The notes beneath the pieces were generated by a model that saw only the letters and a program-made list of their open reading frames with translations, was not told the DNA's origin and made no database searches. Below are positions 1-64,000 of a DNA stretch of 64,000 nt, piece by piece (position 1 is the first letter of the stretch; each line of letters starts with the position of its first letter). The stretch comes from Pomacea canaliculata. Lineage: Eukaryota > Mollusca > Gastropoda > Architaenioglossa > Ampullariidae. The stretch is from positions 13,265,950-13,329,949 of the forward strand of contig NC_037596.1 of NCBI RefSeq assembly GCF_003073045.1, given 5' to 3'. The position numbers were made by a program, and so were the translations under genes.

Positions 1-5
1 CTTAC

Positions 6-984
6 ACAACACCTCAACACGTATCAGTCGGGTAGGTATGGGAAGTTCGTCTCTGCCAGTGTAGATTATCATCGCACTCAGTGACCTGGTGACGACCTGA
101 GAGATGTAGATGTCTAAAGCCACCACAGAGCTGCTCACGTGTCGTTGTTCCCAGTAGCAGGTGACTCCTGTCTCTTCACTCACTTCCTTCTTAAACTCGG
201 TGATAAAGTGTTTTTCGTAAATAAATATACATGGAGTTCTCGCAGAGTTTCCTTCACAAACCGTATAATGAGCATACAACCTGTCTGGAACATCAGGACT
301 TGTCATAACATTGATGGTGTAGTTGATATTGATAGAACCATTTTCTTCTTTACTCAGGCTTTCAGTAAAGCTAGAAAACCCACCTGAAAAATAAGGGTTT
401 ATTCATGAGTAGGTCAAGACATATCAACGAGGAGAAATAAATCAAGAAGATTGCAGTGTCACACTAGGCTCGTTAATAGTCTTTTATGTCTTCAGATCAG
501 ATCGATCATGGGAAAAAAAGAATTTTTCCATAAAGCACTAGTTTCTGAAACTTAAATAAAGTTGTCAAACATTAGTAACAGCAAGAGATTTCAGTCAAGA
601 TGGTAACTGTATGAAACGGAGATCTCATGTCTGGGAAGTAGGTCTCTTAAAATTCGAACCTCGTTTAAAACAACAGTAAGATAGTCATCGTTCGTGTTAG
701 GTTTTTTTTAATCATTTCATGTATTTATATCATATTAAATAAATAATTTGTAAGCTTATATGTTCCTATATGCAGGCTTTGCGTTCAACATTTGTTGAAT
801 ATATCTGTAAAAATTAAAGACATTAACTAATGATTGTTAACACAGTTAGTATTTAAACTTGCGAAATTAATCTTTAAAGAAGACTAGGTTGTCGTATTCG
901 CTCCTTACACTCCAAGAGAAAAATTCCTTTCATCAGTGTAAGAAGTATCAAACACAGAGAACCAACTTTGGTTGATGTGTTCAT
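6..984 (-). CDS. Gene A': Ig-type membrane/secreted protein, 5' part (cut by window edge)
   Basis: Two exons are visible. The first (984-909) starts at an ATG and encodes a 25-residue hydrophobic leader (MNTSTKVGSLCLILL...) ending in phase 1 at a GTAAGG donor. The second (383-6) is bounded by TTCAG and a GTAAG donor, is 378 nt long and phase 1-1, and encodes an Ig-like domain with an N-terminal GFSSFTESLS motif, conserved Cys in VCEGNSARTPC, and the motif ISQVVTRSLS. It is the same length as the first-domain exon of gene A (4863-4486) and clearly paralogous to it and to 18416-18027 of gene B. By analogy, further Ig exons and a TM exon should lie left of the window. The protein should be exported; its ligand is unknown. 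A GTAAGT donor at 2302 on the same strand may end a non-coding first exon. No frame break is seen. Confidence 0.72.
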
Positions 985-2993
985 GATGAAGTACATGATG
1001 GGTCCAGCCGCTGTACACCAGTGTCCACAAAATTTTAACAGGAATATAATCGCAGGATTCCGACACTCGTATAAGCGACCTCTGAACTTTCAGTTTCCTT
1101 GTATAGTCTCTTTCAAAATAACCGCAGTCTGTCTGTATTTCCCTTTGTGGTCATTAGCTGTTTTCTTGAGTATAGGAAAATAAATTAGCCAGGTACGAAG
1201 TGTATATACATTTCTTTCAAGACACTAATTGGAAAATATTATTACAAAATATTGGAAAAGAAAGAGATGGCATCTCCTCTTTCTTTCTTTTCTTTGTTAG
1301 GTATTCTCTGGTGGTTTACTATCCATGAAACCTATAGCTTAAATACATATTCTCCCAAATGCTGATGCAATGAGTTTCCCTTTTATTCATGGATAATTTT
1401 TTTTATAGTAATGGGCTTTTTTTAATCTAAAAATTTTGAGCATTTTCATTATTTTTCCAAGCTTCATTACCAGGTTTGATTCTTTTAGATTCTTCAAGAC
1501 TTATTGCACACAACATTACAGAAACTATATGTTTGCAGCTACAATAAGTAGGCTTTTTCTCCCACAGAAAATGTTCTCACTTCGACTCCCTAAAGGGAAA
1601 TAACTCTGTCAGTCTTTGCGCTGTAACAAGAACTGTGGGTTGTGGCGCTTGCTCACAAGAATCACTATATGTACGAAAGCATTGTTGTGAGGACAGAATG
1701 GTTTTAGTAGACGCACATCCGGAACATACACGACATGCTACAATATTGTTGACATTCCCCATCTTTCTAATTATTGTCTTATTATCCATATTTATTCAAA
1801 TGTGCACATGCCACGCCTGCTAACACTGCATATATATATATAAAGATAGTTTGACACATGGTAATATTAACCACAATATATATATAGATATCACTACACA
1901 AATGTATAATGCGTGCAGGAACTGCTGAAATAAGACTAACATAAAATGAATGTTTGTGATACAGTAGCCAAGTGTAAACAATTTCCACGATCTATGTCAA
2001 AATCTGATATTTCCTCTGTGTACGTGCTTGATTTCATCTTTCAAATATTTTTGAGAACAGTGACAAACTTGTTTTTTTTAAGTATCGTATGTAATGTAAA
2101 AGTATGCTTACCTTTTAGACCTTATCTGAAACGCTCAGCGTTCTTGTCGTTAAAGTGTGTACCCGGCAATAATCCGGGTGGCGGAGGAAACGGCGGGTGT
2201 TGACTGAATGATGCACGGAACGACGAGTCAGCGAGAAAGGAAAGTTTTCACTCATACACGGTTGCCGTGAGTTGGTTTACTAAACATCACAACTTACTTA
2301 CCTGGTGAGCTACACAACTCAGAAAAGTTTGAATTCCTTCTTCTACATCTCACGGTTTAAATTTTATTTTTGTAGGTAGAGATACAGGTGGGTTAGCTTC
2401 TGAACCATAGGGAACACACACTATCTGGTTCGATACCCGTGTAACGAACTTATTTCTCCAGTTTACACAGCTGTGGACTAAGTCTCTTGCCCCTCGAGGG
2501 TTGGGAAAAATAAGATAGCAGGGAGAGGAGAGGGGTACCAATATCAAGAAAGCTGAACTTGAGAAAAGTTCGTCTTTACCACATAACTCCTCGATTATAT
2601 CATGGCAAATGTAGTTTCAAAACTAAAAATTAACTAACAGATTTTGTGCTTTCCGTGTTTATTTAGAACACCTAATGGTTTCTCTAAATAACGGAGGTAT
2701 AGTCGTTATATTCCTTTTGGTCTCGAGAATAAATATTAGTTTTCATGCATGTCTCTTCTCCAATCTTTCCTTTCATTAAACATAGTGGTCTATACCTCAA
2801 GAATACTTTCTTGTTCGACCTTTCTATAAGATCACATGCCCTGCTCTGGTTCTTCAAATATATTTGTTTTGACAGTCTTAGTCATTCGTTGGTTACTTAG
2901 TTTGTTCGTTAGTTTCTTGACTGTTCGTGTTTTCCTGCCTTTCTTACGCTATTGTCTGTTCCCATCTAGTAAAAGATAGCATAACATACTCAC
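985..2993. other. Spacer between genes A' and A
   Basis: No coding exon with good splice signals was found here on either strand. The stretch is AT-rich, with a TA-rich run near 1826-1885, a possible non-coding first exon of gene A' whose donor is at 2302, and a weak tRNA-like block near 2385-2500. If gene A once had TM and tail exons they should be here, but no valine/leucine-rich exon was recognised on the minus strand. Confidence 0.5.
2385..2500 (+). repeat. Possible tRNA-derived SINE remnant
   Basis: The block reads like a degraded tRNA head: a GGTGGGTTAGCTTCTGAACC segment resembling an A box, then CTGGTTCGATACCCG resembling a B box (consensus GGTTCRANNCC), with spacing near that of a pol III promoter. 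No 3' tail or target duplication was found, and only this copy was noticed, so a chance match is possible. Confidence 0.3.
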
Positions 2994-5718
2994 GTGTGTC
3001 GACGTTGAACAATAAAGTTGTACTTGTCGACCCCATTTCATTAGAGAAAGTTAATTGCCAGTTTTCTCCCTTAGCCCTGTCCTCTCTGTCGAGGTGAAGG
3101 GTCAGCAAAAGGTCAGGCGGTGCACCAGTCAAGGTGCAGTTCACTTCTCTCCTCACCTTCAACAACGACGAGGCCATGACACATCTCTTGAATGTTTTCG
3201 TGTGAGCCTTGAGGTTAAAGTGCCAGTGTTCACACGAGTTGTGGTGAGTTACATTTGGAATGTGTCAACAAACTGAGGAGGACCTGTCAGTTAAAAAAAA
3301 ATAACGATGATTAAAATATGTCTATAGCCTTTAATTAGTAGTCGTAAAAAATTGCATTAATCTATTAAATTAAATCTTATAAAAAAAGTGGAGTGTGGCG
3401 ATAATTGCTAATCTTTTTCTCATACATCTTGTTATTTATAGATCGTTCATTGTGTGTTGACAAATTTTTCCCATGCTTCCATTTTCACAACAACGGATGA
3501 AAATCTTTCAAATAACAGCTCGTTTGTTTACAACTAAAAAAAGAAAACTGATTGGAGTATTGAGTGTGAAATGAGTGCAACTCATTCTGTACACACTGCA
3601 AACTTACATCGGACGAGGAACAACACGGATCTGTTGTGTTTCGAACCGGCAGCTTCACATCTGACCACCGGCCAGTCATCTTCACACTGGACTTTGAGCG
3701 AATGATTGAGGTTCTCTTCCCTGTAGGCCAGCTTCAACTGCCTCCACTTTTATCCAGTAGACGGAAAATAGCAGGAGGGTTTCCTTTATCAAATGAGCAG
3801 AAAATGTTGACCACCTGGCGGTCATTGATGACATAGCCACCATCAACTTCCTGTCCATCCACAGTCAGACTTGTTACATGGGCGGGTCTACGTTAAAATA
3901 AAAATATAAAAACACATTCATGTATGTCATACATTCTTCCTTGTTTATCTACATACACGAACTGAGGACAAAGTGATATATTTCCTCCTTCAAACGCAGG
4001 CACACATCATCATGCTCCATTTTTTTTTTCGTTTTTTGGGGTTTTTTTTGTTGTTTTTGTTTTTGTTTTTGTTTTGTTTTTGTTTTGTTTTGTTTGTTTT
4101 GTAAGGAGATAATATGGATAACACAACTATCTGATAGGTAGAGAAAAAAGTGTCACGTATACCTATCTACTTGTGGAGCATATCTATAATGAAATGACTG
4201 ATGTTCTAGACAGCTTTAAAAATTTTACAAATCCTGTAAATAATCTCCGCCAAATTTTTATATCTAAGAAGAGAGCATTATTTATCCTATATTTTGTGAT
4301 AATTTCTGCAATATAGACTTCTTCGTCAAACATCACAAATTTTGTGTCTTGGGCTATGTTAAATAAAATAATCACAGAAAATATGTTTTCTATATATATA
4401 TATATCTCATAAGTGTCTGATAGAATAAATTGTAAGTAACTGTATGTGTAAAGAGATCATTTATCATTTATCAATTGCCACTCACATGAGACCTCGACAC
4501 CTATGTTCCTTGTGATCTTGAGTGAACCACTTCTACTGGTAGACAGTTTCATCACACTCAGTGACCGACTGACCAACTGAGATATCTGCAGTTCCAGAGT
4601 AACCACAGAGTTGCTAGATGTTTGTTGTTTTCCAGTACAGAGGACTCCTGTCTTCTGACTCACGTCCGTGCCCATCATGTTGTTGAAGCCTTTATTCCAA
4701 ATAAAGGTGCAGCAAGTTTTGATGGAATTCCTTTCACACACCTCATAAACAGCATTAAATTTGTCTGTGAACTCCAAGCCTTCAGTAACATTGACAGAAT
4801 AGCTGATGTTTATGATACTATGTTCTGTCTCTTTTAGAATTTCACTGAAGTCGGAAATTCCACCTGAAAAATAAATTGAGGTGAGATATGGGAATAAAAA
4901 CTTCACAGACTTCTAATGCTTAAAAAACAATAATAAGCAGCCCCATACTTATTTATGGAAAGTCTAATATTTATTAGATTATGTAACTGTTGTAGGATTT
5001 TTCCAACAAACTTTAATTGTCTGACATATCTGGTCTCTACTAACCCATCATACCCAAACTTCGTGCTTTTCACACTAAAGAAAAATGAACTTACTTAAAA
5101 AGCAAAAAGTGAAAGCTTAAAACTGGATCATTTAATTATTAAATAACCTAAATTAGAAGGCATTAATGTATGAAAATATTCATTCTATGCATAATCCGTG
5201 TGTAAAAAAAATTTATTAAGCTATAATTAACTATCTGGGAACAAAATCTCGACCTTTACTCCACATTGCTTTGAAAATGACAAATACATCTAAAAGGTAT
5301 GAATCGGAGAAAAGGGAAGATAAAAGAATCTACGTATCAGAAACAAATGTCAAACTAAATATTCCATATTTGTCTTATGTGAAAAATGCCTTCTGTAATA
5401 AGTGGATGTTGAAGATTTCATCATGTTCCTCTGTCTTGTTGTTGTATTGGTTTTGATGTGACCACATAAATCGTAATATTATTCATTTTTGCCATTTGAA
5501 TCAATATTTCAGAAGGCTTATAATTTTCATACAACCTCATAATTAATTTTCTTCGTGTTAATGTCACAATAATTACTTCCTTAAAAAGTAGTCAACAAAA
5601 TTATACTCGGGAAACATTGTTTGGGACAAAATGCTCGTCACGTTTACTTACAGGACAAGGAAAGTACTCCTTTCTGTAGAAGAAAAAAGATGTAGAAACC
5701 TGTACAAGATGCCTTCAT
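2994..5718 (-). pseudogene. Gene A: decayed three-Ig-domain membrane protein paralogue
   Basis: Exons in transcription order: leader 5718-5652 (22 codons, MKASCTGFYIFFLL..., GTAAGT donor, phase 1); Ig1 4863-4486 (378 nt, open, phase 1-1, ends EVS-T at GTGAGT); Ig2 3887-3608; Ig3 3283-2994. Order and sequence match gene B. Ig1 is intact, but Ig2 has lost one base just after its acceptor relative to gene B (ACCCGCCCATG against ACCCACCTAAAG) and changes frame again near GGCAGTTGAAG. Ig3 begins PPQFVDTFQM and then stops, while the rest (VNCTLTGAPPDLLLTL) is open in another frame. Ig2 is 280 nt and Ig3 290 nt, against 276 and 285 in gene B. No TM exon was found downstream. The simplest reading is a pseudogene that may still express a soluble first domain; assembly indels are the alternative. 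Confidence 0.65.
4021..4105. repeat. T/G-rich simple repeat (TTTTG-type)
   Basis: A T-run followed by repeated GTTTTTG and GTTTTGTTTT units. It lies in the intron between the Ig1 and Ig2 exons of gene A. Simple low-complexity sequence. Confidence 0.85.
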
Positions 5719-8205: not shown

Positions 8206-11200
8206 CTATGTGCGAAGATTTTCCCCTTCGGTGCTTGAAATGAGAGGAATATTTGATCCTCCTTTGCCTGAGGGGGATGAGCCACTTTTTTCTTCGAGTC
8301 CAGAATTGCTTTCAGCATATTTGACCCCAGTGCCGCCATTCTTCTGGGGTTTATTGAGGGTTGAGCCTTGTCCATTACTGTAAATGACACAAATTGTCTA
8401 AAACAGCATTGCTTCACTGACTTGTTAATGATTTGTTTACAGCTTTTTTTCCTTCGTTATTTTTAATACTTTAATTGTGTAGAATTTCCTTCGATACTTA
8501 AATTGAGAATTATCATATCAGATTGTTTAAGTATTATGTCCTTACCAGATGATCTTAGCATCTGTTTCCTTGGCCGTGCTGCAGCTTATGAGCTTTTTCA
8601 GTTGATCCAGTTGCTTTTTTGGTTTGCTGCCTTCATTGACGAACTTGATGGATTGAGAACTTGTGTTCCTGCAAAGAATATGACTTAATTTTAAAAGGGA
8701 TGCTGAATTTTGAAAGATATACTGTAAAGCTGAATATTTTTGTATCCCACAACTTTTTTCTCTGTCATAATGAGGCAGTTTTCAAAACTCTGTTTCCGAT
8801 TTCTTTATTTTTCAAACTTTTGTACAGAAGCAGGAAATCTTCCAAGCATATAGATGTATGCATTGTGTGTGTGTGTGTGTGTGTAAAGTTACATAAATTC
8901 AAGTTCATGCACCTAAGAATCTGATTTCTTATGCAAAGTGCCAAATGCAACTATCTAAAATTTTATAAAGTAGAAAAAAATGGAAATAGAACAAATATGC
9001 AAGCGTTTGCAAATTTACTCAGTCACGTGACTATTTTGTGTGTTTATGAAACCCCACAGTTTTGGGGGCATGCTGTTATATTTTCGTTTGACTAAATGCT
9101 GTCGTGTAAAACCAGCGTACCAATCCAGACTAATTAGTTTCTATGGTTTGACAGGGGAAAATAAGGTGTGAGGGTGAAGGAAGGAATGGTGCTAACTGCC
9201 AGGCACACCGTCTGGAAGCATTCATGATATTGGATTAAATATCAGCTCATCGAATGTGTAATTATTTTCTCCTATTTTTATGTTTCTATAAATACTTATT
9301 TGCTTGTTTACATGGAGATATTGCTGAGTTTCCTGAACAAACGGATTGGCTTGTCTTGACTCACGACTAGTCACACTTCACTAAATTGACTGAGTTGCCT
9401 GATTCATGACTGACACACGGCTGTACATTACCAGTAAATCTCATTGTTTATATGGTACTGTCTCAACATCCAACTTTCACAATCATTTCACTTACGTTTT
9501 AAGATTCTTGGTACTTTCACAACCTGCAACAAATATATTTCAGCATGACATTTGTATTTAAACAACAATCTGTGTCACATATTTGTTAGTCCTTGACTTG
9601 AAAACTGCAATGAGCACTTTGATCTCAATTATCTGAATTTATAAATCATATGATAGACATCATAACTATGCTTTTTTATTTCTTTTTATAACTCTGTGAA
9701 TTTTCAGTAAATTAGATAGCAAAATGATTTTACATTTCTTGAACTTGTATTTCCTATACAGTAGAAGACCAATGACAACGATAAGAATGAGTAGAGCAGC
9801 AACACCAACAGCCAATCCGATAACTACTGCAGTACTGTCATCTACATTAAAAATATGTTTTTTATCAACACCATCAAGAAAGATAACAGTAAGAGTACAT
9901 CACATGAAATAAACGAGAAAGAGGCACTATGATCGACAGAAATTTTTTTTTTTATAAATGTAGATCATGGACATTTTGTATTGCTGTTGTGTTATCCCCT
10001 TGGCTGATTATGGTTTGTAAAAACAGCTGCATCAGAAACTCAATTAAATTTTAGTTTTCTTGCAAAATCTGTCACAATAAGATGTATCGCTGTTTTTGTT
10101 TATCTACTGGACAGTTGTAATCGAGGCATACATGTTATTTCAAGAAAGTAAAATAAAACTCTTATGATTACACTAGATTTGTTTTTATTTTTATTATTTG
10201 TTATCAAACATAAGGAAACTGAATTTAGGCAAATTATCTGTACTAGTTCTTCCACGTATCAAAGTGAATAAATTGTGGTTTTATGTTTTCTACTGTTTGT
10301 CCTGCTCGTTGTTATTCAGGCTTGTCATTTACAAAAGACATCTTGGAATAACAGAAACAAGAAAAAAATTATTATCACTAATTGTTAAATTTACAGTGCA
10401 TTACTTACCTCCCTCTTCGAATTGTTCTGGTTTTAAAGTGCTTACTCCTGGAAACAAGCAAATGTCAATAAATAAATTTTAAATGTTTCGAGTGTAAGGA
10501 GTAGAAAAATATTCATATGTTTAGATGGGCTCCGAAGATCATAAAGTGTAAATGGACCGTTTCTTAGAAGTTTAAAGCATTAATCATCTTTTCGTACTAG
10601 TCTATCAGAAATGAGAAAAATTAATAGTCTTCTGCTGGCTTTCATCTTCTGCTTTTGCTAATCTTCACCTCCCGTTAAGTTTAAGGAACTTTCTGGAGGT
10701 TAGCTGCCCTACATATCGTCACATTGTCAGGCACATTTGAATGACAAATACAGATGCTAAACATTTTTCTTAGACCTCCATTTTACATTAAAATTCAAAA
10801 TAAGCTCTACACGATAGACAAACATCCCAGTAGTATTCAACTATGAAGTGTATACCTGTGTGTTTTCACAAACACCTGACACTTTTAAACTCTCTTACCA
10901 AAGAGTGTCATCGCAAAAGGGTCGACTTTAGCAGAATTGAAGCTGCTGATGGGACGGCCTATTTTCTTAAAATCGCCCATACTCCGAGAAGATCAAGTAA
11001 GTAGTTGTTCTCAAACCAAAAGAAACTCATTAGCGCCCACTTGAGCTTTCCTGAATAATCAAATATAATTTTTATTACACTGTCAAGTCGTATAATAAAG
11101 TTTTAACACTGTAAAACAAACTAAAACTGAAGTAAATTTTTTTTAAAAAAAAGAAGTCTGAGAAAATCTTACCCGAAAATGGAAACTGGCATTGCTTGGT

Positions 11201-12400
11201 CACAGGAAGGTCTCCTCTCTGACAAGAAAATGTTCCTTTCTTTTTAGCAAATGTTTCAGTCACAGTGATGGTCGCAGTGTTGAGATTTTCCTGTGTGACG
11301 ACGACCTCATCTGAGGTACACGCGTATCTTCTTTCAATGCGCGTGCAGCTAACCATGAGTTGTGCTGGAAAATGAAAATAAGCTTGATTTATTCAGTGAT
11401 AGGAGTTACGAGTTTATGCTTTTGTAAATATTTAAATTGTTGTTTTGCTTATCACTACCAGAGTTTTTAATGAGTTAAACAAAATCACATCTAGTCACGG
11501 TAATCTGATGATGTGGTATGATGGACTGCCTGAGATTTTATCCTGGTTTTGAAATTACTGTTGCATAAATCGTGATATAACCGCGAAATATAAAGTAGTA
11601 CTAAACACAAAGAAAATCATGTAGTTAGAAAATATCTCACAGTGATAGAGAAACAACATTAGTGTTGAGATATCCATTTGTGTAATGAATGACAGGTTGA
11701 GCAGTCCCGTCGGTCTCATCGACCTGTCCAGTAATTTGTCTTGAGATGCGTGAATGGATAACAGGGTGTTCTGAAGGAAGGAGAAGAATAAAACACAATC
11801 ACGCGCTGTCATCAAGCAACATGGGCAACAAGAAAGAGTTCTTCAATTAAATACCTGCAGGTCCATTGAAAGGATTAAAGTAGACTGAAAAATCGCCTTT
11901 CCCGTCACCGACATCAGGAAATGAGCACTGGATTTCAAATGGACTTTTTGTGTTCTTCAGCTGACAACTCATTTTGGATTGCCTGGAATAAACAAAGACT
12001 CAGATTTACTTATTGAAGAAAGGTTTCATTTTACAAATCTGTCGATGTGGTATCATTTAAAAACCCAACATAGTTGTTTCTGATAAAATTTTACAATGAT
12101 GAATTCTTTTAAATGTCAAAACAGATATTGCCAGTTAATCAAACATTACTGAGCTGCTCGAAACAAATTAATTGCTAATGATCTGTTTCTGTCGTATGGG
12201 TTAAAACAAAATTGACCAAATGCCCTGATAGCAATTTTGAAAATAAACAAACTATGATTTGTTTTTTTTAATAAAACATCGTGCTGCCCTTTATAGTCTA
12301 TTTTAGCTTCTTTAATTTTATGTGAGTCTCGTAACTTACCTGTCAGTATCACAGCTTTTTGTTTGAAATCACTGAATGTCGCTATCAAACCATGTTACTT
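8206..12400 (-). CDS. Gene C: single-ectodomain type I membrane protein with long cytoplasmic tail
   Basis: Exons, all with GT/AG ends and matching phases: 12400-12340, 11982-11855, 11364-11173, 10447-10409, 9841-9734, 9523-9496, 8668-8546, 8377-8206. The first three encode a Cys-rich Ig-like ectodomain (motifs KMSCQLKNTKSPFEIQC and GTFSCQRGDLPVTKQC). The 39-nt fourth exon is an acidic linker (VSTLKPEQFEEG). Exon 9841-9734 encodes the TM helix (VVIGLAVGVAALLILIVVIG, then basic KYKFKK). The last three encode a tail of about 105 residues rich in Lys, Ser and Gly with one KYAESN tyrosine site, ending LRT-stop at 8206. The exon at 12340-12400 contains an in-frame TGA (12369-12371), and the start is unresolved: an exon at 13349-13289 (MTTMLFLDTIEG...) fits in phase but is a poor leader. 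It may be a functional receptor with an unseen start, or recently disabled. Confidence 0.68.
8864..8884. repeat. (TG)n microsatellite
   Basis: An uninterrupted run of about ten TG units, between two tail exons of gene C. Confidence 0.95.
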
Positions 12401-16054: not shown

Positions 16055-19000
16055 CACGTTTGCATTTTTTTACCATTTTAACGGCGATGATAACAGCAGC
16101 GACAACGATAACACCAGCGACAGTAACGACAACAACGGTGGGCAGAGAAACTTTAAACACCGATCTGAGACCTTCTGATGCTGAAAAAAAGTCACATTTT
16201 GTTTACTTCTACTTTACACATCTCCGGTTGAAGTGTTTTCAGACATTATCATGCTGGATCGGGCAGTTTACATTTTGTAGTAAAAGGTGAGAAGGAGAGA
16301 CAACATAAATTCGTTGAATTGCTATCCACATTCACCAAGAAATGTCATCAATCAGAGATTAAGTCTCAATTACATTTATGACAGTGCTTTTCTAAAATCA
16401 CACTTATGCTTATAAAAATGTAATAGTGCATTCACAGCAGTAGTCATGTGTATTCATTTCAATACCTTCCTGTATGTATTAATCTGATGATGACGCATGT
16501 ACCCATTCGTTCTTAGCAACCCTCAGTCCCAGCTAGGCATTTCTTAACAGTTCCCATGTATATTCCGTATACCTTCAATGAAGCTTAGTGCTGTATTCGA
16601 AAAGCCTCCTTCGTTGTGAAGAGTTAAGGTCCAGTTTCCTTGTAGATGGATGTCTTCCTTGTCAAAGAGAAGACCTAAGATCAGATCGGGTGGATCACCA
16701 CTGAGGCTACAGTTTACTTTCTTTACGAAGTCCAGAGACAGGGATGTCAAGATACATTCTTTGACTGATGTCGTGTGAGCCTTGACACGAAATGTTGCAG
16801 CATCAACAAGTTGAGGACGAACAAACTTTACAGACTCGCCAACAAACTGCGGAGGACCTGCAACAAGATAACCTAAGCGTAATGATTAAATTAAACAGGT
16901 TAACAAATACATCACACACACACAATATCATTTTCATTTCTTGCTTGCTTGTTTGATGTCACACATTAAAACGCCTATTATCCTGCATTAATACACATTA
17001 GAAACTCGTAAGAAGTAGTATAACTGTTCCTTTTCTACTCACATCTGACCAGAAACGACAGCGATCTATTGAGTTCTGACCCGTTTCCTTGACAATGAAC
17101 TGTCGGCCAGTCATCTTCACACTGAGCTGTCAGTAACATGTTTAGAGGACCTTCACTTTTAGTAAGATTATTTCCATTGCTGTTGAACAAATGAAAGACG
17201 ACAGGCGGGTTTCCTTTGTTAAAGTTGCATGAGATGGTGACCTTCTGACCCTCGTTGATGAGATGAGTGTCGTTCACCTGTTGTCCATCTACAGTCAGAC
17301 TTGTGACTTTAGGTGGGTCTGCCACATACACATACCCTTCCCCGATTATTTTCGCCTGAACACTTTATACATGAACGTACAAATGCAAACGGTTATTTAT
17401 TCTGCTGTACATACAATAATTGATTTGCTATACTCATAAAACAGTCAGTCATAATATGAACCCTTTTTAAAAGCTCTGTAATAAGCAATATATGGCAACA
17501 GAAATTTTTTTTTTTTACTTTTAAGGCTATATTCATGAGACTTCAACTTTGTGTTGTATTCTAAAGAGACACGAAAAAATGAAAAGAGAATTTCTACTTC
17601 TGCAAGATTATATTTGATTATTCTTCTTACGACATTACACTGTACACCCCATGCTTGCTAAATCATAGGCAACAGTTTGGGGCGATATTCACAGAGCAAC
17701 GGGTCTTGTCTCCCTAGTTATAAGTCTAGCAATTATGTTATATACTTAGGACCTTTGTTATAAATCAATGTCAGTGATACCCTTGGGTAAAAGTAACTTA
17801 AAGCAACACCCGCGGGTCGTGGACAATCAACCGTAACTTCGGAGAGAAGACAGTTTTCTTCGATGTTCTCATCCTGCATACAGGTAATGACTTTCTTCAC
17901 TTCATGAATACGATGCCGAACTGCCAAGTGAACACACGGTCGCATTATTCACTTAAGTATTCGAGAAAAGGTCACAATATAATTGCCCCCTGCTATGTGG
18001 TGATTGTAGTGTCTCTCGTTACTTACCAAAAATATCAAGGCGTATCATGCGTATTATATGGAAGGTGCTTTCTTTGAGAGTGTTGTTCTCCAGGTAAAGT
18101 TTAATGACAGTTGATGACCGGGTGACCAGCTGCGAAATTTGAATCTCCCAGGTCAGGGTGGAGCTGCTGAGTTCACGACTCTTCACCGAGCAGACTGCAT
18201 CGTCCTCCGAACCCCAGTAGTCGGAAGTCATTTCCTTACTTTGCTCATTCCATTCAAATACGCACTGACGTGTAAGTATGTTACTTTTGCACACATCAAA
18301 AGCAAATATTATTTTGTCCGAAAAATACGATGACTCGGTGCTATTGAGAAGATAGGAAATATTTGTAAAGTTGCCTTCTCTTTCAATCAAAGTCTCACTG
18401 AACCTTGTTATTCCACCTGAAACACAATCAAGTTTACAAAACGTAAATTATTTGACCCTTCGTCCTCTTTATTCATGAAACCAATGGAATTAACCGCCGC
18501 AAGCTTTGTTTTAGTCTTTTCTCTTATCAGAAATTACAGCACTATAATCCAGTCACAATTATCAGAATAAAACAACCAAACAAGTCGAAACTTTGGCGAA
18601 ATTCGTGTCTTGTCTCAGTACTTTATCACAAATTTTTTTTTATTTCAATGTAAGTATACTTTACCTTTTTAACCTCTTTCTTCCGAACACAAATCGTTGT
18701 TTTATATGTAGCACTGAGCTTACGTGGCATTTATAATGTTTCATACCAAATTGTGGCGATTTCTCAATCGTCAAATAAAAATGCATTTATACGTTTAAAG
18801 AAAACATGGATCTGTACTCTTTCAGTATGCTTTCCGGGCGCTACTCCTTAAAAAAAGACAAACAGAAACCGGATAGATAGATTTGGAGAAGCTTGAAGGC
18901 CCAAACGTTGCAGGTCTTAAAGTCGCTAGGCACTGATAATGTTCCAGCTGAGCTACTCAAGAAGGGTGGGGAAGAAACTACGAAGGCCCTGACTGTCCTG

Positions 19001-20503
19001 TGCCAAAGAGTCTGGGAGCGCAAGGAATGGCCCAAAGAATGGACGCAGTCACTAATCATACCCCTCCCCAAAAAGGAAACAGCAAACAGTCTAAGAACTA
19101 CAGAGCCATAAGCTTTATCAGCCATCAAAGCAAAGTCATGCTAAAAATCATACAGAACCACACCACAACCACCGCAGAAGAGCTGCTAGCAGAAGAACAG
19201 GCTGGATTCAAACCACGTAGAAGCACAGATGGGCGGATCTTCAACTGTCGCATTCTCATAGAAAAGCGTTTTCAGCATCAACGAAACCTCTATCATAACT
19301 TAATTGACTTTAAAAAGGCATTTGACATAGTCTGGCATGAGGGGCTATGGCATGTGATGCGAAAATTCAACATCGAAGAAGTCCTCGTTCAAGTCGTCGA
19401 AGCTATGTACAATAGCTCAGTGATGCTGAACAACCAAATAAGATGTTGCTTTCACACCACTATCACAGGTGCTATCACAGGTGCTGTTTAATATCTTCTG
19501 GGAGAGCATCATGCTCGAAGCTCTCCACGACCACCATACTTCTATCTCAATTAGTGAAAGACTAATCTGCATCCTATAACATACAACATAGGTCTGTTAG
19601 TGGGCGCTAACAATAAACTGCATGACCTCATCAACAGACATAAATATGGAAAATGGAGACCAGCACTGTAAAAAGCAACGTTATAATCAATGGCAGACGC
19701 AAATCAGAGATCTACATAAACAGGGTACAGCTGGAAGAGGTCAGCAGCTTCAAATACTTGGGAGCCACCCTCTCCAAGGACGGCATCTTCACGTCAGCTA
19801 TCTGCATCAGGATCGCAGCAGCGATAGTAGCAATAGCTAGACTAAACAGAATCTGGCATAGCCATAGGATAAGGTTCACTACCAAGTATAAGTTGTACAA
19901 ATCCCTGGTAATACCGGTCCTGCTCTACTGATGTGAACTTTGCACGCCGAGACGGAAAGTAGAATCCAGGTATTCGAGAATAAGTGCATGAGGAGGTTGC
20001 TCCAAATCTTCGACAAAGAACATAGAACTAATGACTTTGTACGAAGCAGTTAAGATGGCTACACTCGTAGGATACCAGGAACCTCTCCTCTCAACAGTCA
20101 AGCGACGTAAGCTAGTCTTCTTTGGTCATTTGACCAGGCACGACACCCGATCTAAGATTGTCCTTCAAAGCACTTTGGAGGGTAATGAACGCCTCGGTTT
20201 CCAGAGGAAAAACTGGCTTACGAAGATGAAAGACTGGAGGCCGTCCTGTACAGGACCTGCTGACTATCGCCCACAATAAGCAAGAGTGGCGGCCATGTCA
20301 GCTACCACGTCTGTCCATTGGATCCTTCTCTGCAGGTCAATGAACGACTGACTGGCAGAGATAAACTACCATACACGTAAAGCAGTCAAAACTTTAGTAC
20401 ATCGTAATCAACAGTAATACTCACACGTAGAAGAAATTGTTTGATTTTGTGTTGTAAACACAATCAGTAACACAACAGCTATAAGGTTAAAAGTATCCAT
20501 CAT
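16055..20503 (-). CDS. Gene B: three-Ig-domain type I membrane protein
   Basis: Exons with consistent phase 1 joins: leader 20503-20425 (26 codons, MMDTFNLIAVVLLIVF...); Ig1 18416-18027 (390 nt; GITRFSETL, VCKSNILTRQC, ISQLVTRSS); Ig2 17318-17043 (276 nt; PPKVTSLTVDGQ, VTISCNFNKGNPPVVFHL, AQCEDDWPTVHC); Ig3 16857-16573 (285 nt; PPQFVGESVKF, KVNCSLSGDPPDL, WTLTLHNEG); TM 16180-16055 (SEGLRSVFKVSLP, then VVVVTVAGVIVVAAVI, then KMVKKCKR). All five are open. NxT/S sites suggest glycosylation. The TM exon ends in phase 1 at GTAAGT, so tail exons must follow below 16055 but were not found. Intron 1 holds an RTE-like LINE. It is the intact counterpart of gene A, so a surface receptor or adhesion molecule is likely; the ligand is unknown. 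Confidence 0.8.
18870..20375 (+). mobile_element. RTE-like LINE fragment (reverse transcriptase)
   Basis: Degraded non-LTR reverse transcriptase sequence in several frames: DNVPAELLKKGGEE, WTQSLIIPLPKK, NYRAISFISHQSKVMLKI, LLAEEQAGFKPRRST, NLIDFKKAFDIVWHEGLW, VSSFKYLGATLSKDG, LYKSLVIPVLLY, and LVFFGHLTRHDTRSKIVLQ. The order fits RT domains 1-7 plus the usual C-terminal segment of RTE/BovB-like LINEs. It is 5' truncated, since no endonuclease is present. The catalytic F/YADD block is missing from the visible frames, and at least three frame changes or stops occur. It lies in intron 1 of gene B, antisense to it. Ends are approximate and no target duplication was found. Confidence 0.8.
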
Positions 20504-36900: not shown

Positions 36901-39900
36901 ACTGATGAGAAAACTTGCTCAGTACATAATCTAGTCATCTCCCAGAAGCTTGGAAAAGGTCTGTCCAAAGCTGAACCTTGGCCCTAAGCTCCACTTGGGG
37001 TGAACAAGAAGAAACATGTAACAAGAAGAAAGCTAAACCTACAACCTGATTATCACCAAGGTTCAATGAACCATTGGAAAGATGCCTGCCAAGGAGTGCG
37101 ATTAGATCTGCATTTTCTGTGATGGACGAGATGCTCAATGACAATGACAGGTGTGAGATCACTGGCAAATGCACCCTCAAGTCTGCATGTAGGCAACTTG
37201 CACGGATGTTTTGTTGGACTGTTGATCTTGACAAAACAACTGTTGCTGGATGTTAAATTGGCTTAAGAGCCTTCTTGAGGGATAGTCACGCCTTATGAAG
37301 ATGATATCATCACTCCTAACAATAGCATGTTAAACCTTGTTGATATGGACAAACGTCAAAGGTGATCAGCACTCATAGTTAGGAACTGGCCAGGCTAAAC
37401 ATTAATGCTGGTGCACTTAATGGTCCATCTCTCAGACCAAGAGCCTCTGGTGGCCCGTGGTGCAGGATATGCCCTGGACTGGTCTGGAGAGAGAAGTGAA
37501 GTGGGCTTGGGCTTTATTCAAATCTTCCATCACCAGCAAACTTCAAAGCCTCACAGTGGGTCATTTAGACTACATTATGTCCCTGAGACCCCTGTGGGAC
37601 CCCGGGGTATGCTTGCCTAGTGAGCATTGTAAGAATTGGGTCCTGCCATCCAGCCAGGCATGTCGTAAGAGGCGACTAAGGTGGACACCTCACCTAGAAG
37701 TAACTTAGGCTGTGGTAGGGCTAACAACAAAGAACTCCACCTAAGAACTGAAACCGAGTCCATCACCACGCAGGTTCAACGAAGGCGTTGGCGATGAATT
37801 GGACATGTGCTCTGCCAGCAGACAGCAGACCTCTCCAGAGTCGCCCTACGATGGCCGAAGAAAACAAGGCCGCCCAAAGGAAACTTTGAGAAGAACAGTG
37901 GAAAGGGAGATGAAAGGGCTGGTCATGGGGTCACCTAGAGCAAGTTTCAGCCGACCGACATCGGTGGCGGACTCTGGTTGAGGCCTTATGTGCAACCTGA
38001 TGCTCGAAGAGGTTTAGATAGATAGATGTCCCTGAGACCTTCTGTAAAACATCCGGTGCATTCCACCGGCAATGTTTGTGATCCATCATGAGCATCAGAT
38101 AGCAGGACTACTATTCCTCTGAGGCTTCTTGGAGAGCAGCAATAGCTAAGAAGCAGAGGCAAGGAAAAGTGATAATCACACAACCCCAAAATTTGTCTTT
38201 CAGCAGCACATCTGCCAGAAAGTCAGCACAAGAAACTTCACATTTGAAGACATAACCCCACCCCCTGCAAATAACAGATTTCACTTTCCTTGTTGAGAAT
38301 GAGACTTAATGAATAAGATAAGACACAACAGAAGTATTTCCCCTTGTTGTAATGCTCAACAATATCAAATTGCATAATGCCATATTATAATAATGACAGT
38401 CACTTGCAAGTTTAGGTTTGGTTGTTTTTTTTTTTCTTTAACCGATTCTGCCTGTTCTATCTTAGCTACTGTGGTAATGCTTATTTGTTTCATGTTAACA
38501 TGTGAAAGTGTACACAAGACATACATTTGTTTGCATATACCCTTAGTTAAATAATCGAAAGATTGAAGAATGGAAACTTTCTTTCAACCAAAATAAATAT
38601 TTTTTTGATTCAGTCATGATACCTCGTAAGAAATAAATTTCAAAGCACGGAGCTATCAAGAATTTATTCCAGTTCTGAAAGCAGCAGTTCTTTTTCCATA
38701 ATAGTCAATAATTCTAGTTAAAACTTTAAAATAACTGCTGGTCAGCAGCAAACACGCCTTCCTGTAATAACCGGTCTTTCGCCACATTGAGGTTGAGCTC
38801 ATCTTTTCATTTTAAAAGTCTGCCATATGCTTACAAATTGCTATTCTATGTATCAGCAGAGCTATTGTATGCTTTTGTTAAATATGTGTGTTGGACAGAA
38901 ACTGTTACTGGATGTAAATGGTCAGACAAGACAAACAACTACATCTGCAACGCGGCTAGAGGGTACATCTGTGAAATTCTTGAAAATAAGGGCATTTTGA
39001 TTTTGATACCAGAATTGCAGCCTGGAAATTTTTGCCTTCAGATCCGCAAAGCAGGTGTTCATTGCATTTGTTCATGGACTGCAAAAGGTAAGATTTCAAT
39101 GTGCATGTTAGATCCTAAGCATCCTATTGATTTTCAGTCAACAACCTTGAGCTATTCAATTGCCACCCTTGAGAAAGTTCTGTTTATTTTAATAGTAGCT
39201 GGGGTAACTTGTCCCACTGTGATTACAGCTGTGATTTTGTTGTCCACCATCAAACTGCCACTTCATTTGAGTCAAGGCTTATAATCAACATGTGTGGCCT
39301 CAGTGTAGGCAAAAGTAAAGCAGTTACACTCATTCCCTTGCTGCACTCTGTCTCCTTCCTTTTGCTGGGGCTAACTCATTTTTATGGCACCAGAAGAGGA
39401 TGTAAGTCTGACATGAGTCAAGGGGAAATAATGTGATGACAGATGAGCCTTGATGTGTGCCAGCATGAAAGAATGAGTGAAAGGGGGAGGAGAACGCTGC
39501 TCACAGTTTGTAAAGGGAAAGATAGGGTTGTCCCCTTTCAATTGCTAGCTACAACCTCCCTTTCTCTCATTGTTAATCTCATTTTAGGATATGAAAATTT
39601 GCTTTGCATAGTAGGCATATTCAAATATTTTTTGCATAGAATTATTTCATTAGGAGGTTTGGCAACCAGTCCTTTCACTGAAATTCTGCCTTTGGAAAAA
39701 AAATTTCTTCATGACATGTTTTCGTAAGCTTATTTTTCAGCAATGGTGTTATCTGGAAAATGCAGGAAAGAAATCATTCTCTGTGTTAAAATTGGTGGGA
39801 GGGAAAATTGTTAAGTTTTCTGATAAATTCGCCTGATCCTTGCTGATTGAATTTCGCTTTTTTGATTTTTTTAAACCCTTTCAGTCTTTGGGAAACATCA

Positions 39901-45900: not shown

Positions 45901-48900
45901 ACCTGGATTTGAAATCACTGTACAGCATTGCAACGACCTGAACAAGTTTTGCATAAACTCCATAATGCCTCAGGATCTTCCATAAGGACTCTTGGTGAAT
46001 GCCATCAAAAGCCTTCTCCAGGTTGATGAAATCGATGTACAGCGGTGTGTTCCACTCATTGCTCTTCTCCAGAATCTGTTGCAGAATGAAGATGTGTTCA
46101 GAGCAGGATCACCCTGGGCAAAATCCTGCTTTCTGTGGTCAGAGGTCTTTCTCAAGGGTTGCTGTCAGTCTTGACAAAACAATCTTGCTGATGACCTTGC
46201 TGGTGAGGGAGAGAAGTGCTATATCCCTCCAATTATTGCAATCTCCAAGATCTCCTTTCTTGGGTAATTTGAAGATGACCCCTGTCTTCCATGCATCAGG
46301 GAGCTGTCCTGATTCCCAAACTTGCCTGAAAATTTCAGTCAGCTTTGGAGCTGTCACATTCACATCTGCTTTCAACATCTCTGCTGTTATTCCATCTGCC
46401 CCTGGTGCTTTGCCGCTCTTCATTGTCTTGACTGCTGCTGTCACTTCTTCCAGGCTTGGCGGGGAGCGGCCCGGTGGCGCAACGGTTAGTGCCTGTCACC
46501 AATACAGTGAAGGTTGGTTGCCCAGAGTTCATTTCTCGTCTCGGGCACGCTGTTCTTTCTGTGCCCGTGGCATCTGTTTACAGGGCTGGCTGCTTGCCGT
46601 AATATAGCCTTAGTTGCTGACACGGCGTAAAACACCAACCCCCCCCCCCCCCAGGCTTGGCGGGTCTGTGCAGATGTCAAGGACTGTAACTGCTGACTGG
46701 ATGTCTGCAAGCTGAGGGGGATCTGGTCTGTTCAAAACTGACTCAAAATGCTCCCTCCAGCGCTGTAGTTTTTGTGCCTCTCCTTCGACTACATTACCAT
46801 TCATGTCTTTCACTGGCACATCACTGTTTTTAAACCCGTTTAGCTGTTTTTTTGGGTTTTTTTAAATTTTGTACAGTGTCTTCAGGTCATTTTTTCTTGC
46901 TGCTATTTCAGTTTCATCTGCCAATTTCTCTATGTAATCTCTTTTGTCAGTTTTTGTCATCCTCTTTACCTCTTTGTTTAGTTTTGTATAACTTTGTCTG
47001 TGTTGTTCCTTCAGGTGTTCAGATCTAGTGCTGTTGATTTTTTTGTTTGGCTGACTTTCTCTCGTCTATCTTCTTCCATGTCTCTTCTCTGATCCACTTT
47101 TCTTTCTTTTTCTTGGAAGCCCAGTACTTTCTCTCCTGTTTCCCATAAGACTCGATTGAAGTCGTCTAAGGTCATCTCTTATTGGTCTCCTTGTGCCTGG
47201 AACCATGAACTTTACGTCCATAGAAAAGGCCTGTTTGGTGGCTGGACTTTTCAGTTTGCCAGAGTCCACTCTCTGCTGACATGCCTGTTTTCCTCGCTAT
47301 CGACGTAGCTTCAGAGAAACTGCGGCTATCACAAGAGTGTGGTCACAGGCAATGTCTGCTCCTCTGTAGGCTCTGACATCTTGAAGTGATCTCCATCTTC
47401 AGTTGATGATGACATGGTCTATCTGGTTCTTTGTGATCCCATCTGGTGATGTCCACGCTGCCTTGGGGATGTCTTTGTGTTGGAAGAGTGTGCCTCCAAT
47501 CAGTAGGTTGTTTTCTTCACAAAAGTCTGCCAGTCTCTCTCCTTTGTCATTGATGGTACCAATGCCATGCTTGCCCATGACATGCTCCCTGCAGGTGTTG
47601 TCACTTCCCACCTTGGCATTGAGGTCGCCGATGATGAGCAACATATCGTGGGCTCAAGCACTCTCCAAGGCTCCTGGAGCTGATTGTAAAAAGCATCATT
47701 GTCTTCTGCCTCGGAGGCTTCTGTTGGTGCATAGCAAACTAGCACTGTCAGCTTGGTGTACTTTGAATGGAATCTTGCTCTCATTCCAGCAGTGCCTTTT
47801 CTGTTTGTTTTTTTTTTTGTTGAGGAGTAGTGCTACTCCTTCTGAGTGCTGACCGTCTGATCTTCCTGATAACAAGATGGTATGTCCTGACGCTAGTCTC
47901 CTCTTTCCCGTGCCGGTCCATCTGACCTCACTGACTCCCAGGATGTCCAAGTTGTAGTTGTCAAACTCCTTGACTAGTTGGAGCATCCTGCCAGTCTGGT
48001 ACAAGGTCTTGACGTTCCAGCATCCCATCCTCAACTTTTGCCTTGGCTTCAGTAAATCCACTGTCGGGGCGCCAGCTCCCTTTCGGGTTTGGCTGTCGTC
48101 CGTCATAAGTCCAGTCGCCTGTTGTGCTTCATTACCTTCGCCATCTGTGACGAGTTCTGGTTTTAGTTTCTGTAACATGATTTTTTTTACATGGTGGGGT
48201 TGTTAGCCCTACCACAACCTATTTTACCTCTGGGTGAGGTGTCCACCTTACTCGCCTCTTACGACATGCCTGGCTGGATGGCAGGAGCCCTATTCTTACA
48301 ATGCTTGCTAGGCAAGCATACCCCAGGGTCCCACAGGGGCTTCGTTCCATGCAGTTACCATTTTTCATTTGAACTTGGTACAAAAACACAAAAGCTATAT
48401 TTCTTGCAAATTACATTACTTAAATGTCTTTTTATTTTTAAAAAATGCCCTATGATGCCGTGTGTCAATAATGGTTGTCTTTATTATAGGTTAATAGGTG
48501 TAAGTATTGAAACACATACTTCATGCCACCACTACATACTGTTCTAAGTGTTCAATGACATCACATTTTATCCTTATGGAATGAGTTAAAGGCATCAGAC
48601 CTCAAATTCCCTGACATCACATGTATATTCATAGTTGCATTTGTATCTTCATTTACAGGAGCACTGGAAATAGCAACTCCTATCGTCCAAGGAATTCTGC
48701 CATTCTACATCATAGGGGTGCATACATAAAAGACATTTCTTCCCCATCTCAGACCAACATACCAGATCGTGGCTGCGCCAGGTAAGAATATACTGTGATC
48801 ACCTACGAATATGAGCTGTCTCATAGTCATGTCTTTTCTGTACAGATGTATGGATGAAAATAAGATTTTCTTATGTTTGGTCTGACTCAGGCAATGTGTA

Positions 48901-49301: not shown

Positions 49302-49370
49302 CTATCACTCAGAGACTACGTCTCTGCTGGAACACGTGGGAAAAAGCCTCGACCATAATATTGTTCAAAA

Positions 49371-49566
49371 GGGGGGGGGGTGTTTGGTGTTTTACGCCGT
49401 GTCAGCAACTGAGGCTATATTACGGCAAGCAGCCAGCCCTGTAAACAGATGCCACGTGCAGAGAAAGAACAGCGTGCCCGAGACGAGAAATGAACTCTGG
49501 GCAGCCAACCTTCACTGTATTGGTGACAGGCGCTAACAGCGCTAACCGTTGCGCCACCGGACCGCT
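49371..49566 (-). repeat. Poly(C)-tailed SINE, copy 4
   Basis: Reverse-oriented full copy: a G run at 49371-49380, then the complement of the family sequence, ending at AACCGTTGCGCCACCGGACC. An 11-bp duplication AGCCTCGACCA (49345-49355, 49568-49578) brackets it, with about 15 extra bases (TAATATTGTTCAAAA) between the left duplicate and the C run. It lies just after the putative last exon of gene F. Confidence 0.87.
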
Positions 49567-49578
49567 TAGCCTCGACCA

Positions 49579-50040
49579 CACTTCGGTTCTAGCTTATATA
49601 CTACCGGGCCACGTGGCCCCTTCCAATTCCATCGAACTAGTTCTGACGCTATCGAACTCTGACTAGAGGGACTACACCCCATCGCGCTATACTCGGGATA
49701 CCCATCATCTATCCACCGCTCATCTTCCCACGGTCTGACACACCACCCTCCGACTGTCGCGACACTCCGTCTAGTTCTCCCTTTCGGCAGCGGTGTCCAG
49801 TCGGCGGTAAAGTAAACAAACTCTGTTCTCATGGCCAAGTGTACGGGCCTTTCCATTAGCACCCGCGAATTAACGTACCCGTGAAGTGATGCCTGCGGCC
49901 CCCATTTCGAAAGCGGCCTCGATTCCCAGGCTCAGCTACCCCAAAGGGAGATAACATCTTTACCCCCTATTGTTCCCCCACAGCCTGTATCGCCTCAGGG
50001 TACCAACTGCCCCTCTTTAATGTTTCTATTACTAGTCCGA
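49579..50040. other. GC-rich unidentified block
   Basis: A GC-richer block, unlike its AT-rich surroundings, with TTATATACTACCGGGCC near its left and ACCCCAAAGGGAGATAAC near its right. It existed before the SINE copy 4 insertion. No coding domain was recognised. It could be a repeat of unknown class; no family is claimed. Confidence 0.3.
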
Positions 50041-53190: not shown

Positions 53191-53559
53191 ACTCCCCTTC
53201 CTTCCTTGACCAGATAGATTAGATATCCCTTATGCAACTCTGTCATTCAGATTTAAATTTGTACATTTGCTTCTGTGCATTCCTTGACATTGGTAATGCT
53301 TTCATTGATTTCTAAAGTTGTTGGCTTTAACAGCAAGAAACAATATTACTGCAAATTAATGTGGTAGCCAGGACTTTGTCAAGTCTGGACTTAAAAATAG
53401 GGGTAAGCAGTCTTACACCCCATAGGTAGGAAGAGGAGACTCAGCCTCGGACTACTAGAAAATTATCACATTCCTAGTTTGCATGATAGAGACTTAAAGT
53501 CCGTCTCGAGCCAGCACGAAGTTAATCTTAGAGTATTGATGTAAGTAAAGAAATGTACT

Positions 53560-54003
53560 GTGAACATTGGATTACGAACTGTGGATATTGTTTAACGAAC
53601 TGAACATTGAATGTGAATATTGGATTACGAAATGTGAATATTGGATTATGAACTGTGAACATTGATTGTGATAATTGGATTATGAACTGTGAACATTGAA
53701 TGTGATAATTGGATTACAAACTGTGAACATTGAATGTGAATATTGGATTACGAACTGTGAACATTGAATGTGAATATTGGATTACGAACTGTGAACATTG
53801 ATTGTGATAATTGGATTACGAAATGTGAACATTGAATGTGAATATTGGATTACGAACTGTGGACATTGAATGTGATAATTGGATTACGAACTATGAACAT
53901 TGAATGTGATAATTGGATTATGAACTGTGGACATTGAATGCGATAACTGGATTACAAACTGTGGACATTGAATGTGATAATCGGATTACGAACTGTGAAC
54001 ATT
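53560..54003. repeat. Minisatellite, ~34-bp unit, about 13 copies
   Basis: Tandem units of the form GAACTGTGAACATTGAATG followed by TGATAATTGGATTAC. I counted 13 GGATTA-type motifs. Units at the left are shorter or irregular and those at the right are regular, with point differences (GTGAACATT/GTGGACATT, ATAATTGG/ATATTGG). It is non-coding, between the SINE and the spacer before the MITE. Confidence 0.95.
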
Positions 54004-55064: not shown

Positions 55065-55072
55065 TTGTAGAT

Positions 55073-62140: not shown

Positions 62141-63479
62141 ATGAACACTAACAGTCTGTTGTGTGTGATTTCTGCTGCTCTGGTGGTGCTTTGTGACTAG
62201 TTCTCAGCAACTATGTGAGTAATATTTGAAATATTTAATTTTGTTCATTATCTTATCGTATACATCACTTTCAACCGATGGACTAATTAGGGGACAGTAC
62301 TATGTAGTATACACGGGAAATATTTTTTTCCTATGTTATGAACAGTCTATATCCAGTTTCGTGACTTTTTGAATAAAACATCGTGTACATTGAAAAGACG
62401 ATCGTGAATGGGGATATACCTGTAAAAAACACACAAAAACGACACATGATCCTCCAGTAAAGCTCCTCATACTCCCACATACAGTTAATCATCCAGAACT
62501 TTCCATAACAAATAATAAATACTGGCCTGTGGGGCTGTGTGGCAAATAAAGTGTTGACTGTTGTGGAGTCACCACGGTGACCTAACATTTTTTTGTGATA
62601 ATTTGATACACGAGGCTTTGTATGACGGCAATTCAAAGACATTATTTGAAGCCCAAGGTAGTAAAACATTTTAAATCGCTTACACATAATAAGAATTCAA
62701 TTCTGTTGTTCAGGTGCCAAAGTGAAGATTGAAAACATCAGTGATAACGTGTTTAGAGTCACTAACAATGGCGTCGTGAGTCTGACTTTCTACTTGGCAA
62801 CGGAAAACTGTCCTCGGAACCTTTCAAACACCATAAAGGTTTCTGTCGTCACATCCGTAGCCATGGAACAAGAAGATCTTGTGCAGAATACGATATGAAA
62901 ATGGTACCTACCAGACATCTGATACCAGTAGACATTGTCACCTGGACAAGTCCACGAACAAAATGAAGTTTTTGTTCAACGTCACCTCAATGGACATGAG
63001 AGTGAAGTTCACTCTTACTTCTTCCAGTCCCGGTTCTTCTCTTACCTTTGTTGACATCGTAGGTAAGCTTTCGATAAAAATCCGAACGAAATTCAATCAC
63101 TCTCTCGAAATGCAGTTAGCGGACTCCTCGTTAACTCAGTCTTATAATAATTGTCACATCAGTGAAAAGTTTGGACAAATCTTCATTTTAACTGTTATGA
63201 ATGAAAATCGTGGGCTTACAAAGCATTGCAATCTCGACTCATTCAATTCCTAAAAAGTGGTTTGCACTTTTGCCTACCTACATAAAGTAGAGTTATTTCG
63301 TGTGAAACAATTCTAATTGTTGTACACTCATATGAAGTACAACCTATAAATGTTATACAAGAATCTATATCATGTACAGAAAAGACATTTTATCCAAACT
63401 AAACTCTGGGGCTTTCTGATTTCCACAGATGAAGATTTGTCAACGCCATCCACGTTGTTATCTTCATCACCTGCATCAG
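62141..63479 (+). CDS. Gene D: Ig-type membrane/secreted protein, 5' part
   Basis: Exon 1 starts at ATG 62141 and encodes a leader (MNTNSLLCVISAALVVL). With a GTGACT donor after 62192 it ends in phase 1 and joins cleanly to exon 2; with the stronger GTGAGT donor at 62214 an in-frame TAG intervenes. Exon 2 (62714-63062) encodes an Ig-like domain (GAKVKIENISDNVFRVTNNG, then RYENGTYQTSDTSRHCHLDK, MKFLFNVTSMDMRVKFTL), but one extra base between about 62865 and 62880 changes the frame. Exon 3 (63429-63479) is a 51-nt phase 1-1 Ser/Thr/Pro stalk (DEDLSTPSTLLSSSP), like the linker exons of C and F. No TM exon is visible before 64000, so the gene probably continues. A long open frame to 63873 may be a tail exon, not proven. 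Either a recent pseudogene or an assembly indel explains the shift. Confidence 0.55.
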
Positions 63480-64000
63480 GTAAAAACACCTTTACTGTGT
63501 ATGTTTGTTAACAATCATTGGCTTGTGTATGACATGTCCTTATGTGACAAGAAAAAGTCCAGATGGAATCAGCATTTGTTATAGATTATATTTGCTTCTA
63601 TCGAAATATGTGTCACAGGGACACAAACAAAAGACTCCAAGTGGTAATGTATGGTTCAACGACAAAAGAAATTTGAGACTGCAATGTACATGTTGCTATC
63701 AAATCCGGCTCAAACAAAGGATGAGTGGCTCAGCAGTTCCATCAGCAGTCCAGAAAATTCATGGGACAATCGCAGACAAAACATCAGAGTTAGTTCTGTG
63801 CCACCGACACAGAGATTCAACTTCTAAGCAAGATGGCGCAGAAGAAACGGCTGGTCAACGAAGTTGTCCATAAAAGAAGTAACACTGTGCAGGCGGACAC
63901 ACAGAGAACAACAAGTGATTACAAGAACAGATAAGCAGAAGACATAAAACTTGACACCGATCTGCGGGTCGAAATATTTCTTTAGCTTTGATGCTCTTAT

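Follow-up and report, generated by a model that had tools for sequence, protein, structure and literature searches.

Clustered genes for predicted three-Ig-domain receptors and a linked second family on C7 of Pomacea canaliculata

Do the receptor-like genes crowded into one stretch of the Pomacea canaliculata genome form a single family that grows and decays by duplication, and what might such genes recognise? The stretch analysed here, which we call the window, comprises 64,000 nucleotides (C7:13265950-13329949, contig NC_037596.1) of a 440,159,624-base genome in 24 contigs. A preliminary description had assigned genes A', A, B and C (minus strand) and D and F (plus strand) to one family with immunoglobulin (Ig)-type ectodomains and a common leader. 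Our analysis suggests that this grouping brings together members of three or more families and an open reading frame (ORF) that lacks support, and that the window holds a small part of a chromosome-scale family of V-like/Ig/Ig-like receptors with a linked second family. Window ORFs of at least 45 aa were compared with each other by BLASTP, ORFs in the 304 kb around the window were searched with profiles made from window exons, and genome-wide counts come from single-protein searches at E up to 0.01.

The main family, whose ectodomain exons we call D1, D2 and D3, includes A', A and B. These are three of ten D1-bearing minus-strand copies arranged in tandem from -99.9 to +18.4 kb relative to the window; copies to its left (m10, m18, m25, m99 and others) are named by their distance in kb. 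The three genes are tandem paralogues, as had been proposed, and their D1 ORFs match each other by BLASTP (A'-A, E 9e-34; A-B, E 2e-22; A'-B, E 1e-15). Genome-wide, D2 was listed in at least 150 rows (151 matches; 150 of 183 candidates scored), D3 in at least 149 (150 of 158 scored) and D1 in 68 (72 of 72 scored). All of these lie on C7, which makes up 30.92 of the 440.16 Mb; a general Ig profile gave 140 listed matches on 12 contigs, so the search was not confined to C7. The D2 rows fall into four groups, at 11.19-13.28 Mb (91 rows), 14.86-15.77 Mb (34), 17.08-18.45 Mb (23) and 21.67-21.79 Mb (2). In 139 of the 150 a same-strand D3 follows at no more than 3 kb (median 650 bp), and a D1 was detected upstream in 67. 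After rows were merged (three D2 exons and one D3 exon had each been listed as two), 147 D2, 148 D3 and 136 one-to-one D2-D3 pairs remained. Fewer D1 than D2 detections would be expected if D1 diverges fastest; in the copy L033 (14.92 Mb), a D1-like exon with a weak D1-profile score precedes D2, D3 and a transmembrane (TM) exon, and L034 (21.79 Mb) has the same order of D1-like, D2, D3 and TM exons.

Gene B provides the intact version of this plan. Its five exons between 16055 and 20503 (Table 1) keep a frame open across 385 aa, all introns are GT-AG and phase 1, and the exons after the leader measure 390, 276, 285 and 126 nt, which bears out its earlier designation as intact. The plan would correspond to a type I receptor with a signal peptide, three Ig-type domains (V-like D1, Ig D2, Ig-like D3) and, where found, one TM segment. 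Leader candidates with phase-1 donors are present in A', A and B; that of A' is nearly identical in m10, m18, m25 and m99, with the region around it conserved in the four aligned copies, while those of A and B rest on one gene each. A common leader, as proposed, could be demonstrated only within the A/B family.

The case for Ig folds is strongest for D2. In B this domain matched a PDB profile at E 3.3e-8, with FcRL5 as the best solved match and weak matches to SYG-2 (0.005) and Dscam (0.024). Its Pfam Ig matches fell below the curated cut-offs, so routine annotation may miss the family; Pfam gave nothing at E up to 5 for five raw window ORFs and no Ig family for D3 members. Against PDB sequences D1 had no match and D3 had three, the best at only E 0.62, and profile comparison of D2 with D3 was insignificant. 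Structure prediction, which the preliminary description had proposed as a check, gave Ig-like folds of moderate confidence for both D1 and D3, the D3 model having a weak match to sDscam. D1 has invariant cysteines at 44, 53 and 77, and the canonical V-set pair in strands B and F is missing: the predicted strands 18-28 and 102-112, which we labelled B and F, contain no conserved cysteine, and for this reason D1 is called V-like by fold, not V-set. Taken together, the D2 profile match and the D1 and D3 models place A', A and B in the Ig superfamily, in agreement with the original proposal of Ig-type ectodomains.

Broken copies lie beside intact ones. In gene A, already described as broken, the reading frame changes twice in D2 and once in D3, and the D3 of A' is interrupted, to the left of the window, by about 5 kb of other sequence. 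Across the listed rows, stops inside the match occur in 4 of 150 D2, 9 of 149 D3 and 1 of 68 D1 rows, a count in which not all frame changes would show; assembly error is a possible source of single indels in apparently broken copies. With a chromosome-scale array in which broken and intact copies adjoin, the suggestion that the family grows and decays by tandem duplication is supported for A', A and B.

Differences among copies extend to the membrane end. Beyond the TM exons of B, L033 and L034, none that was convincing was found within 3.5 kb of D3 in the other array genes checked. In m25 (window -26.6 kb) and m99 (-100.7 kb) the acceptor after D3 would give a four-codon tail followed by a stop, and some main-family copies may for this reason be secreted. 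The D3 copies at -11.7 and -20.7 kb have an altered form of this acceptor. Two other candidate features were rejected. Apparent GC-AG donors after D2 were wrong, the cysteine codon being TGT and the donor an ordinary T|GT, and a tyrosine-motif tail (DDYLTV-like) in intron 1 was taken as non-coding because paralogues differ there by indels.

To look for selection, we compared five recent copies (A', m10, m18, m25 and m99; D3 from three copies) with 2000 codon bootstraps. In this small sample D1 shows an excess of amino-acid change, with a mean ratio of nonsynonymous to synonymous substitution (dN/dS) of 1.62 (dN 0.148, dS 0.091; dN <= dS in 0.0295 of bootstraps), and D2 is under purifying selection (mean 0.38, five copies). 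The ratio exceeds 1 in 8 of 10 pairs for D1, 0 of 10 for D2 and 0 of 3 for D3. When D1 is divided into segments, the ratio is highest in the predicted C-to-D strands, at 2.09 (0.002), against 0.83, 1.04 and 1.28 elsewhere; the segment borders were chosen after the variable columns had been viewed. In the other close pair, m32/m41, the D1 ratio is 0.27. For D3 the mean of 0.51 across three copies is marginal (dN <= dS in 0.9545 of bootstraps).

A mostly functionless burst of tandem duplication, in which relaxed constraint on D1 mimics selection, would explain the broken copies A, A' and D, and it draws further support from a whole-D1 bootstrap of only 0.0295 and from the ability of gene conversion to disturb dS. 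We nevertheless judge it quite improbable: few stops occur inside the D1, D2 and D3 rows, D2 is constrained, and relaxation alone would bring the ratio to about 1, not to the value reached in the C-to-D strands. Exchange between copies is itself suggested by a site-compatibility test on the five copies, which gave p 0.0065 for the whole gene, 0.026 for D1-D2 and 0.42 within D1; without m99, 0 of 2000 permutations reached the whole-gene value, and D1-D2 gave 0.092. The introns of m99 are diverged (0.70-0.78 identity to the other copies) and its exons are as similar as the rest (0.86-0.90), a contrast that fits exon exchange and also alignment trouble. The compatibility test points to exchange across the whole gene rather than within D1.

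The second family is represented in the window by gene C, for which exons C1, C2 and a TM exon were read and a leader was searched for without success. C1 and C2 have three relatives in the 304 kb, and C2 has 15 genome matches, every one on C7 (32 of 32 candidates scored). For 14 of the 15 C2 matches the position is 5' of the closest receptor gene; 11 of the 15 are divergent and within 10 kb, where random placement gives a mean of 2.5 and reached 11 in 0 of 20,000 trials. In the window itself C and A share a strand, with C on the 5' side. As copies descended from one duplicated unit are not independent, this pairing shows that a two-gene unit was duplicated, and not that each pair functions.

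What might such an assembly do? A large number of copies, some of them decayed, together with a D2 under purifying selection and an excess of change in D1, fit germline-diversified recognition receptors. We think it probable that the window belongs to a chromosome-scale complex of such germline-encoded receptors, which most likely bind surface molecules of parasites or microbes, as has been proposed for the PTC genes of Biomphalaria. D2 and D3 would form a conserved stalk and D1 a variable tip, whose predicted C-to-D strands, changing faster than neutral, probably touch the ligand; diversity would arise as copies are duplicated in tandem, probably exchange parts with each other, come under selection for amino-acid change in D1, or are lost. 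We infer expression, signalling, immune function and ligand class from these features, the D1 excess lending the immune role indirect support. The marginal D3 bootstrap slightly lowered our confidence in the recognition-receptor proposal, in favour of its rivals.

The same architecture and selection would be expected if the receptors recognised the cells or gametes of other snails, in allorecognition or mating compatibility. Clustered polymorphic receptors of the Ig superfamily serve allorecognition in some colonial invertebrates, selection on a V-like tip cannot distinguish ligands, and a linked second family beside the receptors would suit a receptor-ligand pair. Gastropods, however, are solitary. 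We regard this alternative as unlikely, also because the published snail TM-gene clusters associate with parasite resistance (PMC7494358, PMC11426442).

Adhesion molecules that give neurons or epithelial cells their identity, in the manner of clustered Dscam or protocadherins, are brought to mind by the weak SYG-2 and Dscam matches of D2 and by that of the D3 model to sDscam. Identity codes built from tandem cassettes are usually under purifying selection, whereas D1 lies above neutrality in our sample and copies decay side by side; moreover, the copies have their own leaders and are not cassettes of one gene. An adhesion role is for these reasons very doubtful, and recognition of parasite or microbial molecules remains the reading we prefer.

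Among published systems the PTC clusters of Biomphalaria come nearest. There, resistance to Schistosoma mansoni has been mapped to clustered TM genes that are single-pass and change fast (PMC7494358, PMC11426442), PTC2 genes have no known domain besides the TM segment (PMC7494358), and some clusters on LG16 of B. sudanica carry Ig-only TM genes (PMC10875847). The likeness, drawn from organisation and not from sequence, is strong. PTC2 and PTC1 (GRC) are clusters of single-pass TM genes in one chromosome region with few recognisable domains, missing from or truncated on some haplotypes, and PTC1 ectodomains are beta-rich (PMC7494358, PMC4361660, PMC11426442, PMC10875847). In Pomacea, single-pass TM genes with a large extracellular part are likewise clustered, with TM exons in B, L033, L034, gene C and the array to which gene D belongs. 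The Pomacea complex differs in its 136 distinct D2-D3 pairs across several Mb, in its leader/V-like/Ig/Ig-like/TM plan, and in a second family set mostly head-to-head with the receptors. With its pair number, domain plan, tip selection and linked family, it would offer a structural model for PTC-like genes and for diversification without rearrangement, and its profiles can be tested against PTC genes and population data. Full-text literature searches gave, in titles and abstracts and leaving supplements aside, no description of this family in Pomacea, which is no proof of absence. Balancing selection enriched in immune genes has been reported in P. canaliculata, and the part of that report available to us does not name the region of this array (PMC11417965).

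A bolder extension, which we consider unlikely, is a chromosome-scale complex of two components. The V-like/Ig/Ig-like TM receptor and the divergently transcribed family C membrane protein, having been duplicated jointly as a head-to-head unit, would at each such locus be matched to one another, the partner of the receptor being its ligand, a co-receptor or a checkpoint. PTC2 would then have its caenogastropod counterpart here, with its two large paralogue groups corresponding to the two partners.

Gastropods also possess large families of Ig-bearing secreted lectins, the FREPs and VIgLs, and a Fibrinogen_C cluster occurs on the same contig as the receptors. Many Fibrinogen_C exons lie on C7, mainly at 20.3-29.1 Mb, where they enclose distant D2/D3 relatives at 21.66-21.79 Mb; C7 in this respect looks like an immune-gene chromosome. 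The receptors might then be FREP-type lectins (Ig plus fibrinogen) or their remnants. Yet in the three genes examined (B, L033 and L034) the exon after D3 is a TM exon and not fibrinogen, as in membrane receptors rather than secreted lectins, and among the matches listed no Fibrinogen_C falls at C7 11-18.5 Mb, in a search that scored 150 of 481 candidates and, of the lectin-related domains, covered fibrinogen but neither C-type lectin nor galectin. This origin, already disfavoured, is highly improbable.

Families of the mammalian leukocyte receptor complex offer a more distant parallel to the Pomacea receptors. KIR and LILR are tandem Ig receptors with phase-1 exons, fast evolution and pseudogenes, features that, together with FcRL, they have in common with the genes described here. 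They belong to another phylum and the distal domain here is V-like; apart from the Ig fold we found nothing that points to a shared ancestry.

Genes C and D belong to other C7 arrays, which carry TM exons. The D array comprises nine domain copies including D, all on the plus strand at window 62.9-97.4 kb, with further partial copies at window 65.6 kb and -86.5 kb and two weak matches at C7:5.45-5.47 Mb. A Thr/Ser-rich stretch occurs at window 81.1 kb, and there are TM exons at 78.1, 81.4, 85.3 and 99.8 kb. Twelve weak matches of the D1 profile fell outside the main family, three of them D-array ORFs (E 1.6-3.8). Profile comparisons of D1 with the D domain, D1 with C1 and C2 with F were all insignificant, and the single genome match of F was F itself; the union of the six genes in one family is not supported. 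Candidate F, once listed as an intact member, also ranks low by codon score (998 of 1439 ORFs) and may not be a gene.

Other claims survive in part. TM segments had been seen in B, C and F; those of B and C are plausible, and the hydrophobic stretch of F sits behind a splice-donor sequence. C and D had been called perhaps broken; D has its frame change, and the C1 exon of C is one nucleotide shorter than in three paralogues (128 against 129 nt). Near the D array, three tandem short exon-like ORFs at window 104840-105540 contain DDYISI, DEYISL and DEYVSI followed by a basic stretch, and are perhaps cytoplasmic-tail exons with YxxI/L motifs.

Table 1. Exons and candidate features read in the window (window positions)
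Feature	Position	Strand	Remarks
Gene B leader (signal peptide) exon, predicted	20425..20503	-	hydrophobic ATG ORF, GTGAGT donor, phase 1; single-gene prediction
Gene B D1 exon, V-like Ig domain	18027..18416	-	paralogues; AlphaFold2 model compared with PDB structures
Gene B D2 exon, Ig domain	17043..17318	-	PDB profile match E 3.3e-8; Pfam Ig matches under curated cut-offs
Gene B D3 exon, Ig-like domain by predicted fold	16573..16857	-	predicted model
Gene B transmembrane exon	16055..16180	-	hydropathy 3.04 over 20 residues; TTTTTTTCAG acceptor, GTAAGT donor
Gene A candidate leader exon	5652..5718	-	leader candidate with phase-1 donor; single-gene prediction
Gene A D1 exon, open	4486..4863	-	BLASTP to A' and B D1
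Gene A D2 exon, two frame changes	3608..3887	-	broken
Gene A D3 exon, frame change near its start	2994..3283	-	broken
Gene A' leader exon	909..996	-	nearly identical in four copies left of window
Gene A' D1 exon, open	6..383	-	D2 and D3 left of window
Gene C C1 exon	11855..11982	-	128 nt (129 nt in three paralogues)
Gene C C2 exon, Cys-containing	11173..11364	-	phase 1 at both ends
Gene C transmembrane exon	9734..9841	-	read from sequence; relative at window -54.4 kb, E 0.002
Gene D ectodomain exon, first of an array running right	62714..63062	+	frame change near 62880 relative to paralogues
Candidate F	38730..39281	+	no support as member of any family in window

Much of the middle of the window appears to be filled with debris of LINE type, a label that reflects our reading of the ORFs: reverse-transcriptase-like and endonuclease-like ORFs occur at 32500-38000 and 45000-49600 as inverted copies, 87-97% complementary. 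A 34-nt unit is repeated in tandem at 53557-54003 (11 copies, 89% matches), and a 300-nt direct repeat (21652-21951 and 26251-26550, 96% identical) has a 78-nt repeat pair (24266, 26576) near it.

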